DNA of 64,000 nt. Source: Ruegeria arenilitoris. GTDB taxonomy: Bacteria > Pseudomonadota > Alphaproteobacteria > Rhodobacterales > Rhodobacteraceae. The stretch covers positions 124,001 through 188,000 of the forward strand of contig NZ_WPYP01000005.1 of the NCBI RefSeq assembly GCF_013030985.1, written 5' to 3'. Below are positions 974 to 6,669 of the stretch, piece after piece (position 1 is the first letter of the stretch; every line of letters starts with the position of its first letter). The translations under genes were made by a program, and so were the position numbers. The notes beneath the pieces are model-generated. The model searched no databases, was not told the origin of the DNA, and saw nothing but the letters and a program-made list of their open reading frames with translations.

Positions 974-2020
974 TTATTTGATGGGCGCCGTTTGCGGCGC
1001 GGGGGTGTCAGGTTGGCGCTCGATGAGTGTGGCCCTGATCTTTTTCTGGGTCTCGGACGGGTCTGCCCCGTCCAAAGCTTTCAACATGTATTCGCCCAGC
1101 AAGCGGCTGGTCTCTTCGATCGGCACATAATAGGTGCTGGGCGGCGGCACGAAATAGCGGCTGAGCTGCAGATCGTCGGTTGAGATCACCACCAGATCGC
1201 GACCAATCTGGACCCCTGCGGCATGGGCGGCGGACAGCACGCCCAACGTCATGGCTTCATTCGCGCAGATACAGGCCGTGGGGCGATCTGGCAGCCGCAT
1301 CAGTGCGTCAAAACTGTGCTGCCCAGTGCGCGCCGTAGTCGGGCCGTTGAAGATCAAGGCCGGGTCCGGCGCGATCCGTGCATTGACTAAGGCCTGTTGG
1401 TACCCGGTTTGACGCTGACGCGCATAGATCAACTCGGTCGGAGGGTTGACCAGGGCAATGCGCCGGTGGCCCAGCCGCACCAGCCGCGCAGTGGCGTCAA
1501 ATGCGGCGGCCTGACTGTCGAAATCCACAAAGGCATGGTGCGTTTCGCTGTCGCTCATCCCCATGGTCACAAAGGGGAACCCATTATGTTGCAGATACGC
1601 GATGCGCGGGTCACCTTGCAGCGTGCCCGAGAATATGGCGCCATCGGCCAGCCCATCCTGAACGATCCGCGCCAAGGTCGCCATGGCATCCGGGATATCT
1701 GCCACGTTGAACACGCTCATTTCATACCGCGAGCCCTGCAACGCCGCAGAGATTCCGGCCAGAATGCGAGTGAACTCCACCCCTTCCCATTCATCGGCCG
1801 CGTCCGGCGACACACTGACCAGAACCGCAATGCGGTAGGATTTGTTGGTGCGCAGCTTCAACCCGTCCATGTTGACGCGATAGCCAAGGCGGGTGGCAGC
1901 AGCCTGAATCTCCTGCCTTGTCTTTTCGCGGACCGAAACTGCCCCGCGCAACGCGTTCGAGACTGTACCGACGGAATAGCCGGTCTCTTTCGCGATGGAC
2001 TTGATCGTTGCGCGTGCCAT
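974..2020 (-). CDS. LacI/GalR-family transcriptional regulator
   Basis: A 348-residue regulator. The N-terminal helix-turn-helix (ATIKSIAKETGYSVGTVSNA, residues 4-23) is the LacI type that binds short palindromes. The remainder is the periplasmic-binding-protein-like effector domain, expected to bind a sugar or sugar derivative and control DNA binding. The start ATG at 2020 overlaps the stop of the upstream isomerase gene by one base (TAATG), with GGAGGT about 8 bases upstream, so the two are translationally linked. A perfect 16-bp LacI-type palindrome sits 19 bp before the isomerase start, the natural site for autoregulation of this operon. Family assignment is firm; the effector is unknown. 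Confidence 0.93.
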   Translation of the reverse strand: MARATIKSIAKETGYSVGTVSNALRGAVSVREKTRQEIQAAATRLGYRVNMDGLKLRTNKSYRIAVLVSVSPDAADEWEGVEFTRILAGISAALQGSRYEMSVFNVADIPDAMATLARIVQDGLADGAIFSGTLQGDPRIAYLQHNGFPFVTMGMSDSETHHAFVDFDSQAAAFDATARLVRLGHRRIALVNPPTELIYARQRQTGYQQALVNARIAPDPALIFNGPTTARTGQHSFDALMRLPDRPTACICANEAMTLGVLSAAHAAGVQIGRDLVVISTDDLQLSRYFVPPPSTYYVPIEETSRLLGEYMLKALDGADPSETQKKIRATLIERQPDTPAPQTAPIK

Positions 2021-2772
2021 TACCCGACCTCCGCCGCAAGCTGGTGCATCAGAAAGGTTCGTCCTGTCCGCAAGGTCTCGGCGTGGTTGGGCGTTTCATC
2101 ATGTTCGACGAACAGATCGCTGCACGGGCTGTTTGCCAGAATGCGCAGCACGCGGGGCCAGTCCACCATGCCCTGACCCAGATTGCGCCAACGCTCATCG
2201 CCGTAGCCTGCCGACGGGTCCGCGTCCTTGGCATGAACCGAAACGATCCGGTCCGCATAGCGCTGCAGCAGCATTGTCGGGTCCTGCTGCGAAACTTCCA
2301 GCCACCCGATATCGGGCTGCCAATACAGGTTTTCATGCGACAGAATCAGGTCCAGAGGCGTTTCGCCGGTATCGCCCACCAGATCGAAATCATGATTGTG
2401 ATAAGCCAGACGAATACCCTGTGCTGCAAGCTGACTCGCCCAGCCCGCCAGCCGATCCGCCATGGCAGCCCATTCCGTGGCTGTGGCAGGCCGTTCCTCG
2501 GGCTCCAGCCACGGCATGACGGCCACAGGGCAGTGCAAAAGACGCAACAGCTCCACAATATCGTCGAACCGCGTTTCAAACTCGGGCCAGTCGAAATGCG
2601 CCGAGCGTACAGTCAGGCCTGATCGCGCCACCTGTTGCGCCACACCACGGGGGGGCAGATCATGGAACCCAATCGTTTCGATATCCACGAACCCGCAGGC
2701 GCCGATCAGTTCAAGCTGGGATGCCAGATCCCCAACCTGCCGAACGGTATAAAGCTGCGCCGCAATCCGCAT
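2020..2772 (-). CDS. Sugar phosphate isomerase/epimerase family protein (TIM barrel)
   Basis: A 250-residue protein of the xylose-isomerase-like TIM-barrel superfamily (AP_endonuc_2 fold). It begins MRIAAQLYTVRQ, the usual first strand of this family. Later strands carry likely metal ligands, for example LAYHNHDFDL, WQPDIGWLE, VSVHAKDAD and LFVEHDET, which supply the Glu, Asp and His residues of the divalent metal site. Members isomerise or epimerise sugars, inositol derivatives or hydroxypyruvate; the substrate here cannot be decided. It is the first gene of a leftward operon with the LacI regulator and an ABC transporter, so it should act on the imported compound. No strong ribosome-binding site precedes the ATG at 2772. 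Confidence 0.82.
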   Translation of the reverse strand: MRIAAQLYTVRQVGDLASQLELIGACGFVDIETIGFHDLPPRGVAQQVARSGLTVRSAHFDWPEFETRFDDIVELLRLLHCPVAVMPWLEPEERPATATEWAAMADRLAGWASQLAAQGIRLAYHNHDFDLVGDTGETPLDLILSHENLYWQPDIGWLEVSQQDPTMLLQRYADRIVSVHAKDADPSAGYGDERWRNLGQGMVDWPRVLRILANSPCSDLFVEHDETPNHAETLRTGRTFLMHQLAAEVG

Positions 2773-2806: not shown

Positions 2807-2884
2807 TAGGTTGAAACAGTGCGACCTTACTTGTCAAGATAAGGGTTCAGCTGCGCTTAAAGGCCCACTACGCGACCCGCCTTG

Positions 2885-2901
2885 CCTGACAAGCGGTCAG
2901 G
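2885..2901. repeat. Small inverted repeat in the divergent intergenic region
   Basis: CCTGAC, five bases, GTCAGG: a perfect 6-bp inverted repeat midway between the two divergent operons of the sugar locus. It may be a regulator site or chance. The rest of 2773-3057 contains no gene that I can support. Confidence 0.3.
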
Positions 2902-2911
2902 ATTCAGATGT

Positions 2912-2925
2912 TGTTAGCGCTATCA
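2912..2925. promoter_or_regulatory. Second, different LacI-type operator candidate
   Basis: TGTTAGCGCTATCA is a near-perfect palindrome (one mismatch to TGTTAGCGCTAACA) with the central CG of LacI-family sites but a half-site unlike the GAAACGTTTC site at 2791-2806. It lies about 130 bp upstream of the rightward sugar operon, a plausible promoter position. The difference between the sites suggests a second LacI-family regulator, possibly encoded elsewhere. Confidence 0.5.
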
Positions 2926-3057
2926 TTTTTTGATATCGCCGAGCACATGAGACCCAGCAGAGCGCTTTAAGGCGTCACAACCCCGCACCAACTGGAATGC
3001 CGGAGGCCAAACTGATAGGTGGCACCCCTACCGGTCCCGCCCCAACAGGTACTGATC

Positions 3058-5016
3058 ATGCAAAATATCCGCGCTGATTTTCCCAAGGACTTCCTCTTTG
3101 GCTTTTCGACCTCTGGCGGTCACCACGATGCTGAACCGCTGAACCTTGGCCCGGTGCAAAAGGCCGGGTTTGACTGTTATCGCTTTTCGACCAGTTGGGC
3201 ACATGTTCTGCCCGAAGGCAGGGGATCGGTGAATCAGGTCGGGCTGGACGACTACGACCGTCTTGCCGATGCCTTGCTTGAGCATGGTATCCGCCCTTGT
3301 GTAACGCTCTGTGGCACCGATCTTCCCCTGGCGCTGGACGATCTGGGTGGCTGGCGAAACCGCGATGTTGCGGGCTGGTTTGCCGACTATACCGAAACCC
3401 TCATGAGCCGCATTGGTGACCGCATGTTCAGCGTTGCCCCGATAGACGCGCCTGCATGGTACGGCGCCCCGGACTTGCGCGACATCCGTACCACCACACG
3501 CAGGATGCATCACATGCTACTGGCCCATGGCCGCTCGATTGAGGCGATGCGCGGGCTGGGCATGACCAATCTGGGTGCGGAAATCCCTCCGGAATGGGCC
3601 GAGAACGACTCTCGTTCCGCTGACCTGTTAAGCGGCATATTCAACAACGCCTACCCGGAAGTCACGGTAGCGGAATTAGAGCCATACCTGCCGGAGGGCT
3701 GGCAGGAGGATTTCGACATCATCGGTACTCCGGTTGACTGGTGCGGTTTGCATTGCGATGCCCGCGGACCAATCGACGCCGCAGCCTTGACCCGCATCCA
3801 GCATGGCTTCACCAAAGACCTGCCCCTCTATTTCACCGAAAGCAGCAACTCGGAACGCCAGCAAGATCCTGCCCGGTTCAACCAGATCCTGCAGGCTGTG
3901 CACGAGGCTCTGGACCAGGGCGTGCCGGTGAAAGGACTGTTCATCCACGCATCAAGGATTGAAAATCTGCCTGCTCTGGAAACCAAATTGAGAGGAAGCA
4001 AGGTGTCTCTGCCCCTTGCACAGCCCGCCGGTACCATGCACGAACACTGGAATCTGGTTGCAGATATTGGCGGGACCAATACGCGGCTGGGTGTGATTTC
4101 GAACGGCAAGCTGGCCGATCTGCGCAAATACCCGACGGGCACCCTGTCTGACTTGCTTGCGGTGTTTCACAGCCTGCGCGACGAGATCGGCACCGATCCG
4201 CGCGCCGTTGTAGCCGCTGGGGCCGGCCCGGTCAGGGACGGGACGATCCGCCTGACAAACGCAAATCTCGATCTTTCCGAGGCCGATATCAGCAAGGCCA
4301 CCGGTGCGCAGCATACCTTTGTGATCAACGATTTCACTGCCGCCGCGTGGTCCGTTGCCGAAGTCACCGGCAACGACGTCGAGGTTCTGCAGGGGGAAAC
4401 CACCCCGCCACCCGGCACCAGGCTGGTGGTTGGACCGGGCACCGGGCTTGGCGTCGGCGCCCTGCTCTATTCCGATGGCCGCTACCACACGGCATCGGGT
4501 GAAGGCGGCCATGTCGGCCTGTCGCCCCGCCATGTGGATGAGGTCGAGATTTTCCGCGCCGCCCGCCACATCGCCCCGGATTGCTTTTTTGACGACACTC
4601 TGGTGCTAGAGGCCGAAATGTTCCTCAGCGGAACCGGCCTGCCGATCCTGTATCAGGCTGCCGGAATGGCCGCCGGTCAAGCCGATACGCCAAAACGCAG
4701 CGCCCGGGACATTCTGGAGGACGCCCGCACGCAAACCGATCCGATTGCAGTGAAAACGGCGCATATGTTTACCACCCATCTGGGCGCGGTGATGGGCGAT
4801 CTGGCCGTTGTGCTCATGCCCTCGGGCGGCGTTTTCCTTGTGGGCGGTGTCGCCGAAAAGAACCGCTGGCTGTTCAAGGACGCGTTCCGCGATGCGTTCA
4901 ACGCGGGCGGTCGGTTCAGCGATCTTCGGCGATCGTTCAACCTGTATGTGTCGGAACAAGACGAATTTGGCATTGTTGGCGCTAACAATTTCTGTAAAAG
5001 TGCCCTGACGCGCTAA
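3058..5016 (+). CDS. Fusion of a degenerate GH1 (beta-glucosidase-like) domain and glucokinase
   Basis: A 652-residue cytoplasmic protein. Residues 1 to about 315 resemble a shortened family 1 glycoside hydrolase: FPKDFLFGFSTSG, YRFSTSWAHVLPEGRG, DDYDRLADALLEHGI, GGWRNRDVAGWFADY. Key residues are altered: the usual HWDLP reads GTDLP (86-90), the NEP acid/base motif reads DAP (130-132, Glu replaced by Ala131), while the nucleophile-type Glu is kept in TES (Glu261). Residues from about 332 on are a full glucokinase: VADIGGTNTRLGV, NDFTAAAW, GPGTGLGVG and GEGGHVGL, for ATP-dependent phosphorylation of glucose. The ATG at 3058 was chosen over a GTG at 3019 because homology begins there. It opens a rightward operon with a PfkB kinase and a lyxose isomerase. 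The kinase is probably active and the hydrolase probably not. Confidence 0.8.
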   Translation: MQNIRADFPKDFLFGFSTSGGHHDAEPLNLGPVQKAGFDCYRFSTSWAHVLPEGRGSVNQVGLDDYDRLADALLEHGIRPCVTLCGTDLPLALDDLGGWRNRDVAGWFADYTETLMSRIGDRMFSVAPIDAPAWYGAPDLRDIRTTTRRMHHMLLAHGRSIEAMRGLGMTNLGAEIPPEWAENDSRSADLLSGIFNNAYPEVTVAELEPYLPEGWQEDFDIIGTPVDWCGLHCDARGPIDAAALTRIQHGFTKDLPLYFTESSNSERQQDPARFNQILQAVHEALDQGVPVKGLFIHASRIENLPALETKLRGSKVSLPLAQPAGTMHEHWNLVADIGGTNTRLGVISNGKLADLRKYPTGTLSDLLAVFHSLRDEIGTDPRAVVAAGAGPVRDGTIRLTNANLDLSEADISKATGAQHTFVINDFTAAAWSVAEVTGNDVEVLQGETTPPPGTRLVVGPGTGLGVGALLYSDGRYHTASGEGGHVGLSPRHVDEVEIFRAARHIAPDCFFDDTLVLEAEMFLSGTGLPILYQAAGMAAGQADTPKRSARDILEDARTQTDPIAVKTAHMFTTHLGAVMGDLAVVLMPSGGVFLVGGVAEKNRWLFKDAFRDAFNAGGRFSDLRRSFNLYVSEQDEFGIVGANNFCKSALTR

Positions 5017-5054
5017 AATACGCGCTTGATCCCATGAAACAGAAAGGTCCCGGC

Positions 5055-5981
5055 ATGATCCTATGCTGTGGTGAAGCCCTGATCGACATGATCCCCACTC
5101 CGACCGTTTCGGGCGAAGAAGGCTTTGTACCCCATTCCGGCGGCGCCGTTTTCAACACGGCCATAGCACTGGGGCGGCTGGGGGCTCCGGCCGGGCTGCT
5201 GACGGGGCTGTCTTCGGATATGTTCGGGGAACAATTGGCCGACGCCCTGCAGGCCAGCCATGTGGACGGCAGCCATGTGATCCGCTCGGACCGCCCGACA
5301 ACGCTGGCCTTTGTGCAACTGAAGGACGGGCACGCGACCTACAGCTTCATGGATGAAAACTCGGCCGGGCGGATGTTGATGCCCGAGGATATGCCCAGCC
5401 AGTTGCCCGCCGTGTCGGCGCTGTATTTCGGCGGCATCAGCCTGGCCTGTGAACCCTGCGCCGACGCCTATGCCGCGCTTTTGGCCCGACACGGGGCGGA
5501 TCGGGCGGTGATGATCGACCCGAATATCCGGCCGGATTTCATCAAGGACCAGACCCGCTATCGCACCCGGCTGAACCGGATGGTCGCACAGGCGGATATC
5601 GTGAAGGTCTCGGACGAAGATCTGGACTGGATCGTTCCAGGCCCCGAAACCATCGGTCAGAAAGTACCTCTGCTGCTGCAGGCGGGGCCGGCCGTTGTCA
5701 TCGTCACCCGGGGCCGCGACGGTGCGTCGGGCTATTTGGCGGATGGGTCCGAGACCTCGGTCCCTGTTCAACCGGTCGAGGTGGTCGATACGGTCGGTGC
5801 AGGCGATACATTCAACGCCGGCGTTCTGGCCCAACTCGAACGCGACGGTCATCTAAGCAAAGCCGCCCTACGCGCCCTGACCCCCGACCAATTGCGCACA
5901 GCCCTTTCCAAAGGGGCCGAGGTTGCCGCCGTCACCGTATCCCGCGCCGGGGCAAACCCGCCCTGGGCGCACGAGCTTTGA
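5055..5981 (+). CDS. PfkB-family carbohydrate kinase, probable fructokinase
   Basis: A 308-residue ribokinase-fold sugar kinase. The N-terminus (MILCCGEALIDMIP) and the GGAVFNTAIALGRLG motif are those of fructokinase-type PfkB proteins. The C-terminal signature VDTVGAGDTFNAGVLAQL contains the catalytic Asp (GAGD) and the anion hole that holds the ATP phosphates. It likely phosphorylates fructose or another ketose to feed central metabolism. The ATG at 5055 was preferred over one at 5034 because GAAAGG lies 7 bases before it and homology begins there. It follows the GH1-glucokinase gene by 38 bp and precedes the lyxose/mannose isomerase by 16 bp, which suggests mannose or lyxose to ketose to ketose phosphate. 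Confidence 0.85.
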   Translation: MILCCGEALIDMIPTPTVSGEEGFVPHSGGAVFNTAIALGRLGAPAGLLTGLSSDMFGEQLADALQASHVDGSHVIRSDRPTTLAFVQLKDGHATYSFMDENSAGRMLMPEDMPSQLPAVSALYFGGISLACEPCADAYAALLARHGADRAVMIDPNIRPDFIKDQTRYRTRLNRMVAQADIVKVSDEDLDWIVPGPETIGQKVPLLLQAGPAVVIVTRGRDGASGYLADGSETSVPVQPVEVVDTVGAGDTFNAGVLAQLERDGHLSKAALRALTPDQLRTALSKGAEVAAVTVSRAGANPPWAHEL

Positions 5982-5997
5982 TCCATAAGAGACAGAC

Positions 5998-6669
5998 ATG
6001 AAACGATCCGACATCAACGCCATCAAGACCGAGGCCGAGGCCTTTATCCGCTCATTCGGAGCGGTGCTGCCGCCCTTTGCCAACTGGTCCCCGGAACAGA
6101 TGCGCAGTGAAAAGGCCGCAGGCATACGCGAGCGCGGGTTGGGCTGGGACATCACCGATTACGGGCAGGGCCGCTTTGACGAGCTTGGCCTGTTTCTGTT
6201 CACCCTGCGCAACGGCGATGTGGGCGATTTGAATAATGGCCGGGGGATGCTCTACGCCGAAAAGCTGCTGGTCTCGCGTGACAAGCAGCTGTCACCGATG
6301 CACCGCCACATCATCAAAGCCGAGGATATCATCAACCGGGGCGGCGGCGATCTGGTGATGGAGATTTATGCCTCGGACGCCGAAGGTGGCATAGACCGCG
6401 ACAATCCCGTTGTCGTGCCCAGCGATGGCTGCCCGGTCACCATCAAACCCGGCGAGTTGCTGCGCCTGAAACCGGGCGAAAGCGTTACCCTGATGCCTGG
6501 TATCTGGCACGCGTTCTGGGCCGAAAGGGGCGATTGCCTGATCGGAGAAGTCTCGACCGTCAATGACGACCGCACCGATAACGTGTTCGAAGATCCGATC
6601 CCGCGTTTTGCCACCATCGAAGAAGACGCTGCGCCCGATTTCCTTCTGGTTGCGGACTACTATTCCTGA
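5998..6669 (+). CDS. D-lyxose/D-mannose ketol-isomerase family protein
   Basis: A 223-residue cupin-type sugar isomerase of the D-lyxose isomerase family, which interconverts D-lyxose and D-xylulose and also D-mannose and D-fructose using a divalent metal. The metal site is visible: His102 and His104 in SPMHRHIIKAED with Glu109, and a later His in LMPGIWHAFWAE. The conserved FTLRNGD segment is near residues 68-74. It is the last gene of the rightward sugar operon; its products (ketoses) suit the preceding PfkB kinase. Length is normal for the family. Which of the two sugars is physiological is not decided by the sequence. Confidence 0.85.
   Translation: MKRSDINAIKTEAEAFIRSFGAVLPPFANWSPEQMRSEKAAGIRERGLGWDITDYGQGRFDELGLFLFTLRNGDVGDLNNGRGMLYAEKLLVSRDKQLSPMHRHIIKAEDIINRGGGDLVMEIYASDAEGGIDRDNPVVVPSDGCPVTIKPGELLRLKPGESVTLMPGIWHAFWAERGDCLIGEVSTVNDDRTDNVFEDPIPRFATIEEDAAPDFLLVADYYS

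Follow-up and report, generated by a model that had tools for sequence, protein, structure and literature searches.

A degenerate GH1 domain fused to a glucokinase in Ruegeria: a predicted inactive barrel with a putative scaffold role

Introduction

What could half of a beta-glucosidase be good for in front of a glucokinase, once a key catalytic residue has been lost? The question is raised by one gene of Ruegeria arenilitoris, located in a stretch of 64,000 nucleotides (assembly GCF_013030985.1, contig NZ_WPYP01000005.1, positions 124,001 to 188,000) that is called the window here. A first-pass annotation, made from the sequence alone, had described its product as a degenerate GH1 glycosidase domain fused to an intact-looking glucokinase, and had suggested that the GH1 part senses or binds sugars or hands glucose to the kinase by glycan transfer. 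A literature search covering titles and abstract openings returned no report of a GH1-glucokinase fusion or of its decay. Here, we compare the gene with its relatives in Ruegeria and in other genera, and weigh the possible reasons for the persistence of the GH1 half.

Results

The fused gene and its two domains

The fused gene and its neighbors are listed in Table 1. An alternative GTG at 3019 would add 13 residues to the protein; homologues nevertheless align from the ATG. The description as a degenerate GH1 joined to a glucokinase was borne out by the Pfam profiles. PF02685 (Glucokinase) matches residues 333-646 with an E-value of 7.4e-65 and covers profile positions 1-311 of 314, whereas PF00232 (GH1) matches above its curated cut-off (E 2.1e-33) over the middle of the profile only (67-225 of 453). 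A sequence search of the PDB led from the first half of the protein to GH1 beta-glucosidases and from the second half to Glk. The kinase carries the ATP- and glucose-site motifs DIGGTNTR, NDF, GEGGH and LEAE, whose roles we take to be those of their counterparts in E. coli Glk. It scores 169.5 bits against the equivalog cut-off of 225.45 bits of NCBIfam TIGR00749, so that its specificity for glucose is presumed. The fusion was the only PF02685 protein found in the window genome.

Table 1. Features of the fused gene and its surroundings in the window (positions of the window).
Feature	Position	Strand	Remarks
Whole fusion gene	3058..5016	+	652 aa; single open frame from ATG 3058 to the end of the stop codon at 5016; ATG aligned with homologues
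Degenerate GH1 domain	3058..3990	+	residues 1-311; predicted eight-stranded barrel; Ala131 at the acid/base site, Glu261 at the nucleophile site
Linker	3991..4047	+	residues 312-330; block pLDDT about 70 in the model
Glucokinase domain (PF02685)	4048..5013	+	residues 331-652; DIGGTNTR, VINDF, SGEGGH, LEAEMF
PfkB-family sugar kinase	5034..5981	+	travels with the fusion
D-lyxose/D-mannose isomerase-like gene	5998..6669	+	usually travels with the fusion
Xylose-isomerase-like TIM barrel protein	2020..2772	-	divergent neighbor of the fusion
LacI-family regulator of the window site	974..2020	-	not the agl LacI
Decayed 3' tail of the agl-locus lacI	2982..3057	+	directly upstream of the fusion; blastn, tblastn

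The search for homologues that the first-pass annotation had proposed was rewarding: among 54 Ruegeria genomes, 50 contain a fused frame without internal stops, 31 of full length and 19 shortened, including that of the window. Both Pfam domains were present in 66 of the 120 matches listed (of 1103 found), and PF02685 matched exactly once in every genome that has a complete gene, fused or not (51 genomes). The GH1 part comprises 329 aa in the window and about 451 aa in the full-length fusions, a difference of about 120 residues. A copy 96% identical to the window fusion is present in another species. Since the 19 shortened frames come from independent genomes of different species, an error of sequencing or assembly, which would trivially account for the fusion or its shortening, is excluded as the first-pass annotation's possible refuter and has a practically negligible chance of being the explanation.

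Loss of the active site and the sugar pocket

The residue assignments made earlier for the window protein map in the alignment as stated: the acid/base Glu of the NEP motif is replaced by Ala131 and the HW pair by Gly86-Thr87, and the nucleophile Glu of the TENG motif is retained as Glu261. In addition, the Asn preceding the acid/base residue has become Asp130 and the Asn following the nucleophile is Ser262. Glu261 is thus the sole survivor of 12 pocket and catalytic positions, the other 11 being changed or deleted; the residues that we take to line a GH1 sugar pocket are Gln, His, Trp, Asn, Tyr, Trp, Glu and Trp. Both catalytic Glu residues are found in all 31 full-length fusions and in all 13 standalone GH1s of the agl locus, and in none of the 19 shortened fusions, of which one keeps the acid/base Glu and four keep the nucleophile, never together. 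As the nucleophile is present in only four of 19 copies, two of them near-identical, Glu261 is no general feature of the shortened fusions. The Trp of HW, the second Tyr of NYY and the Trp of WSL are kept by none of the 19, and the residues that replace the lost ones vary among the copies. In the catalytic features compared, the window protein thus does not qualify as a working GH1 glycosidase (Ala131; 11 of 12 positions changed or deleted).

The loss is concentrated in the pocket. Across 47 intact GH1 rows 162 positions are invariant, and retention was compared at those that are invariant in 47/47 rows and aligned in at least 17 of the 19 shortened copies. The eight pocket positions among these are retained in 24 of 152 cells (16%), against 1134 of 1626 cells (70%) at the 86 other invariant positions (permutation p 2e-5). 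Moreover, 31 invariant positions outside the pocket are identical in all 19 shortened copies; unchanged in all 19 are, for example, G133, G134, W135, N137, R189, H196 and H197, numbered as in the full-length fusions.

Deletions and the predicted barrel

The residues deleted from the shortened GH1s follow the same division. With categories taken from the window's own model, which biases toward calling deleted residues loop, 1861 of 2256 deleted cells lie in beta-alpha loops and the other 395 in helices, for the most part close to where helices 5 to 7 begin; strands, alpha-beta loops and the N terminus account for none. For the 56 distinct deletions, 0 of 20000 random placements were equally extreme, a result to be read with the shortness of the alpha-beta loops (52 positions against 188) and the partly shared inheritance of the deletions. 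In the window GH1, five of the eight beta-alpha loops are shortened, as is the beginning of helix 5. The deletion in the first loop has ten different boundaries among the 19 copies, which speaks for repeated pruning as far as boundaries that depend on the alignment can tell; six of the nine copies at the D locus (see below) have one and the same first-loop deletion.

The GH1 half of the window protein is predicted to fold as a complete eight-stranded barrel, in line with the first-pass view that the GH1 scaffold is kept. The AlphaFold2 model (54 sequences; mean pLDDT 86, pTM 0.68) places strands at residues 13-17, 40-44, 79-83, 125-127, 172-176, 228-233, 257-261 and 291-297, with helices between them, followed by the kinase; six of the first 31 ten-residue blocks, which make up the GH1 part, have a pLDDT of 70 or less. 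P0046, a more reduced protein of the D type (621 aa; 34 sequences), was likewise modeled with eight strands and barrel blocks mostly at 80-94, its kinase falling partly below 50 (pTM 0.56). The alignments included intact GH1 homologues, which favours the prediction of a barrel, and at these pTM values the models do not fix the arrangement of the domains. Foldseek matched the window model to E. coli Glk (E 1.2e-23) and T. maritima GH1 (E 5.2e-20), and the P0046 model to GH1 (E 3.9e-16).

Adjacent genes outside Ruegeria

The family sample consisted of 248 genomes, two of them Ruegeria. Among the 246 genomes of other genera, 31 (G163, G215 and 29 others) gave a single match that extends through GH1 and glk in the same frame and is broken by one or two stops (E <= 1e-150), and none of the 31 has an uninterrupted frame; such a widespread arrangement looks like the state before fusion. 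The distance from the GH1 stop to the first in-frame glk ATG was 3, 48, 3, 39 and 27 bases at five of six junctions. As the neighbors are in frame and separated by a short gap, the loss of one stop could fuse the pair. The adjoining Glk proteins of G055, G059 and G060 are only 32-35% identical to the Ruegeria Glk, and the kinase may have been replaced. P0068, an ENA record, is a 766-aa GH1-glucokinase fusion with the GH1 catalytic motifs; its kinase is 61% identical to the Glk of G055 and about 30-33% identical to the Ruegeria Glks. By these identities, the gene pair has probably fused independently in P0068.

Relocation from the agl locus

The agl (alpha-glucoside) locus, taken here as the ancestral site, holds all but one of the 31 full-length fusions. 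An amylase, two permeases and a binding protein lie on one side, followed by LacI, the fusion and, usually, PfkB and isomerase. None of the 19 shortened fusions does so. Seven of them, including that of the window, adjoin a different LacI, a TIM-barrel protein and an SBP; nine, at what we call the D locus, come after genes for DGOK, a KDPGal-type aldolase, SGL and GH42; and three are located elsewhere (L069, L093 and L113 in G031, G048 and G004, respectively). The block GH1-Glk-PfkB-isomerase thus seems to move within the genus. Its constant part is the glucokinase, usually accompanied by pfkB and the isomerase gene. The expected task of Glk is to phosphorylate glucose; mannose and fructose would enter the pool of phosphorylated hexoses through a mannose isomerase and a PfkB of the fructokinase kind.

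Directly upstream of the window fusion, blastn aligned 83 bp with the agl locus of L033 at 75.9% identity (2982-3063, including the first 6 bases of the fusion), with an E-value of 4e-12 that is generous, having been calculated against only two subject sequences. A weak tblastn match to LacI residues 279-341 lies at 2874-3047 (E 0.001). We infer that this lacI tail is a trace of relocation from agl. Counting matches of 44 bp or more, in most cases reaching the first codons of the fusion, the 3' trace of the agl lacI precedes every shortened copy outside the D locus except that of G002 (nine of ten, the window included). The nine D-locus copies gave no clear lacI trace, with matches of at most 27 bp that are largely the fusion start, so that their origin from agl is argued from homology.

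Genome G041 is the missing link of this relocation. Its fusion is of full length and occupies a site like that of the window fusion; LacI residues 261-343 are still readable upstream, and its agl locus retains only GH1 residues 2-73; here the relocated copy kept the glucosidase, whereas in the window genome the agl copy kept it. The two loci of this reciprocal outcome are L117 (G041:C2) and L091 (G041:C15).

An intact-size GH1 is present in 44 of the 54 Ruegeria genomes, and it is these 44 that have the agl LacI (E <= 1e-100). Where the fusion is shortened, 12 of the 19 genomes have a standalone GH1 at agl, among them that of the window (G000:C7:84743-86053), and seven lack the agl LacI as well as an intact GH1. 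A second intact-size GH1 accompanies 12 of 19 shortened fusions and none of the 31 full-length ones. On the rpoB tree, the association between standalone GH1 and shortening was not significant (median p 0.5) in a test underpowered by its six supported independent pairs, which on average gave 2.5 in the same direction, 0 in the opposite one and 3.5 without difference. The reverse test, with four pairs, was not significant either, and the raw association may thus reflect descent. No convincing glk trace was found after the standalone agl GH1 in the 13 genomes that have one; this GH1 branches near the base of the GH1 tree, at weak forks.

Genomes without a fused gene and a diverged kinase

The kinase of G046 (358-368 aa) has no GH1 part, and G046 is the sole genome with a complete kinase of this kind; Ruegeria thus does not depend on the barrel in every case. 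In the same genome a standalone, intact-size GH1 has next to it an agl LacI (G046:C12:507554-508579, L063) that is interrupted by a TAG. Its kinase is 70% identical to that of the window, and two other copies, from the D locus, are 70 and 71% identical. Faster evolution of the G046 kinase, to which its long branch in the Glk tree could point, is not claimed, since its identity is about that of these two D-locus copies. The other genomes without a fused frame are G027, whose kinase lies on a short contig with the part upstream of it missing, G024, with no PF02685 glucokinase, and G017, with a different, interrupted glucokinase. The last is a diverged PF02685 protein matched in two pieces with a TGA inside (G017:C13:98522-99442). 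Among the full-length fusions, that of G030 (L090) has an unusually diverged kinase (68% identity to the window), and no PfkB or isomerase gene was found beside it in a 10-kb stretch.

Selection on the GH1 remnant

Maximum likelihood estimates of dN/dS for the remnant were 0.302, 0.219, 0.293, 0.320 and 0.215 in five D-locus pairs and 0.314, 0.233 and 0.299 in three other pairs of shortened copies; all eight reject a value of 1 (LRT 49-99). Thus, loss of catalytic residues and purifying selection are seen together in these eight pairs. The window remnant and its closest relative G011 gave 0.77, not distinguishable from 1 (LRT 0.5; 36 changes), and the window lineage may be nearly free of constraint on its remnant. 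One further pair was saturated. For comparison, values were 0.029-0.134 for intact GH1 (six pairs), 0.055-0.097 for standalone GH1 (three pairs) and 0.02-0.09 for Glk, and NG86 estimates pointed in the same direction as ML. Since the five D-locus pairs are drawn from the six copies with one first-loop deletion in common, their ancestor was most likely already degenerate, so that an intact past mixed into the estimates would not by itself explain their values, an argument made for the D-locus pairs and not for the other three. By region, beta-alpha loops and core gave 0.036 and 0.066 in intact fusions, 0.35 and 0.31 in the D-type copies, and 0.37 and 0.23 in the W/O copies. The direction, with loops relaxed once shortened, fits pruning, by a small difference.

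Trees and the number of decays

The first rpoB species tree, built with flanks, contained one very long branch; the second, built from the coding part only, needs nine changes between shortened and full-length fusions. On the best rpoB tree the window genome and G011 are not sisters, yet their fusions are 96% identical, which makes transfer or recombination between species likely. The GH1 tree unites all shortened copies, with a program warning of long branches meeting, whereas in the Glk tree the D-locus copies and G002 form a group separate from the remaining shortened ones. Since these trees disagree, they do not decide between one decay and several.

Discussion

At the level of sequence comparison, the window gene encodes a member of the glucokinase family whose GH1 domain is degenerate, and this GH1 half is predicted to be an inactive bare barrel. 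It is homologous to GH1 beta-glucosidases (PF00232; TIGR03356), with T. maritima BglA (PDB 1od0) among the best matches in sequence and fold, and differs from them in the missing acid/base Glu, the pocket that is mostly gone and the shortened beta-alpha loops. The kinase is a full-length, strongly conserved domain of the Glk type (PF02685; E. coli Glk, PDB 1q18 and 1sz2; Foldseek TM-score 0.88, normalised by target), from which the window protein differs in an extra N-terminal domain of about 311 residues and in scores below the NCBIfam equivalog cut-offs. Its direct relatives are the full-length Ruegeria fusions, which have the same linker and kinase and, unlike the window protein, both catalytic Glu residues and all loops. 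NCBIfam NF010701 (bifunctional transcriptional regulator/glucokinase) likewise joins a glucokinase to a second domain; there the partner, going by the model name, is a regulator, and the window match is far below its cut-off. The parts are ordinary; the series is unusual.

What could have led to such a protein? Loss of the stop between adjacent, in-frame GH1 and glk genes would have given the fused gene. This gene, or a copy of it, would then have left agl along with pfkB and the isomerase gene. The role of glucosidase would have stayed with the standalone agl GH1 or gone with the agl locus, and the 12 plus seven genomes described above fit the view that selection on the fused GH1 was lost because agl is served by another GH1 or has disappeared. 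The freed half would have lost catalysis and retained its fold, and the kinase might have adapted to the folded domain in front of it, so as to fold, assemble or be expressed properly only behind the barrel. We consider it rather likely that the dead barrel persists because it serves the genome's only PF02685 kinase as a structural platform, a putative scaffold role. A further reading is that the GH1 was pared down repeatedly, in parallel lineages, to a minimal barrel that the glucokinase now needs, on a course from active enzyme to scaffold to loss; we put it at somewhat less than an even chance. A dead homologue kept beside an active enzyme is reported for the AdoMetDC prozyme (PMC5201418). 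The prozyme is a paralogue of its partner, whereas the GH1 of the window is an unrelated domain on the same chain with a putative supporting part.

The main rival of the scaffold is a passive fossil: a useless GH1 half in decay toward the kinase alone, which persists only since the ribosome-binding site and start codon of the kinase precede it and deletions have to stay in frame. The relaxed dN/dS, highest at 0.77 in the most recent pair, the many first-loop boundaries, as expected of ongoing pruning, the kinase alone in G046 and the small regional difference between core and loops are all what it would predict. Decay of this kind sits badly, however, with the five D-locus pairs, which reject neutrality although their ancestor was probably already degenerate, with the 31 positions outside the pocket that no shortened copy has changed, and with strands and alpha-beta loops that, in the categories of the window's own model, no deletion has touched. 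We regard it as unlikely on balance, though with a chance that has to be reckoned with.

The two functions suggested by the first-pass annotation fared less well. A dead site that binds a glycoside and regulates the kinase could be imagined from the N-terminal position on a sugar kinase, the GH1 ancestry and Glu261 of the window copy, and the same Glu261 could be invoked for an altered chemistry such as transglycosylation passing glucose to the kinase. A module that binds or transglycosylates should keep its pocket, and it is the pocket that was lost, far more than other invariant positions, with its loops deleted and its replacements differing from copy to copy; neither reading is thus supported. 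The sensor is accordingly improbable. The transferase, which would have to work with the two catalytic Glu residues never present together and with the Trp of HW and WSL and the second Tyr of NYY gone from every shortened copy, is more improbable still. The scaffold therefore remains the reading that we prefer.

The present names call for caution. Shortened copies are recorded publicly as 'family 1 glycosylhydrolase', P0028 as 'Beta-glucosidase A', and some full-length Ruegeria fusions as beta-glucosidase or beta-galactosidase/glucokinase; for the shortened copies, glucosidase activity is not to be expected.

Ruegeria and its relatives hold every stage of the series, from adjacent genes and a fusion with full catalytic residues over relocated copies and loop-stripped dead domains to the kinase alone. 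Such a series would allow tests of how labour is divided in a fused enzyme after relocation, of which elements of a TIM barrel have to stay when it no longer catalyses (about 290-380 residues against 450), and of whether dead domains become obligatory partners.
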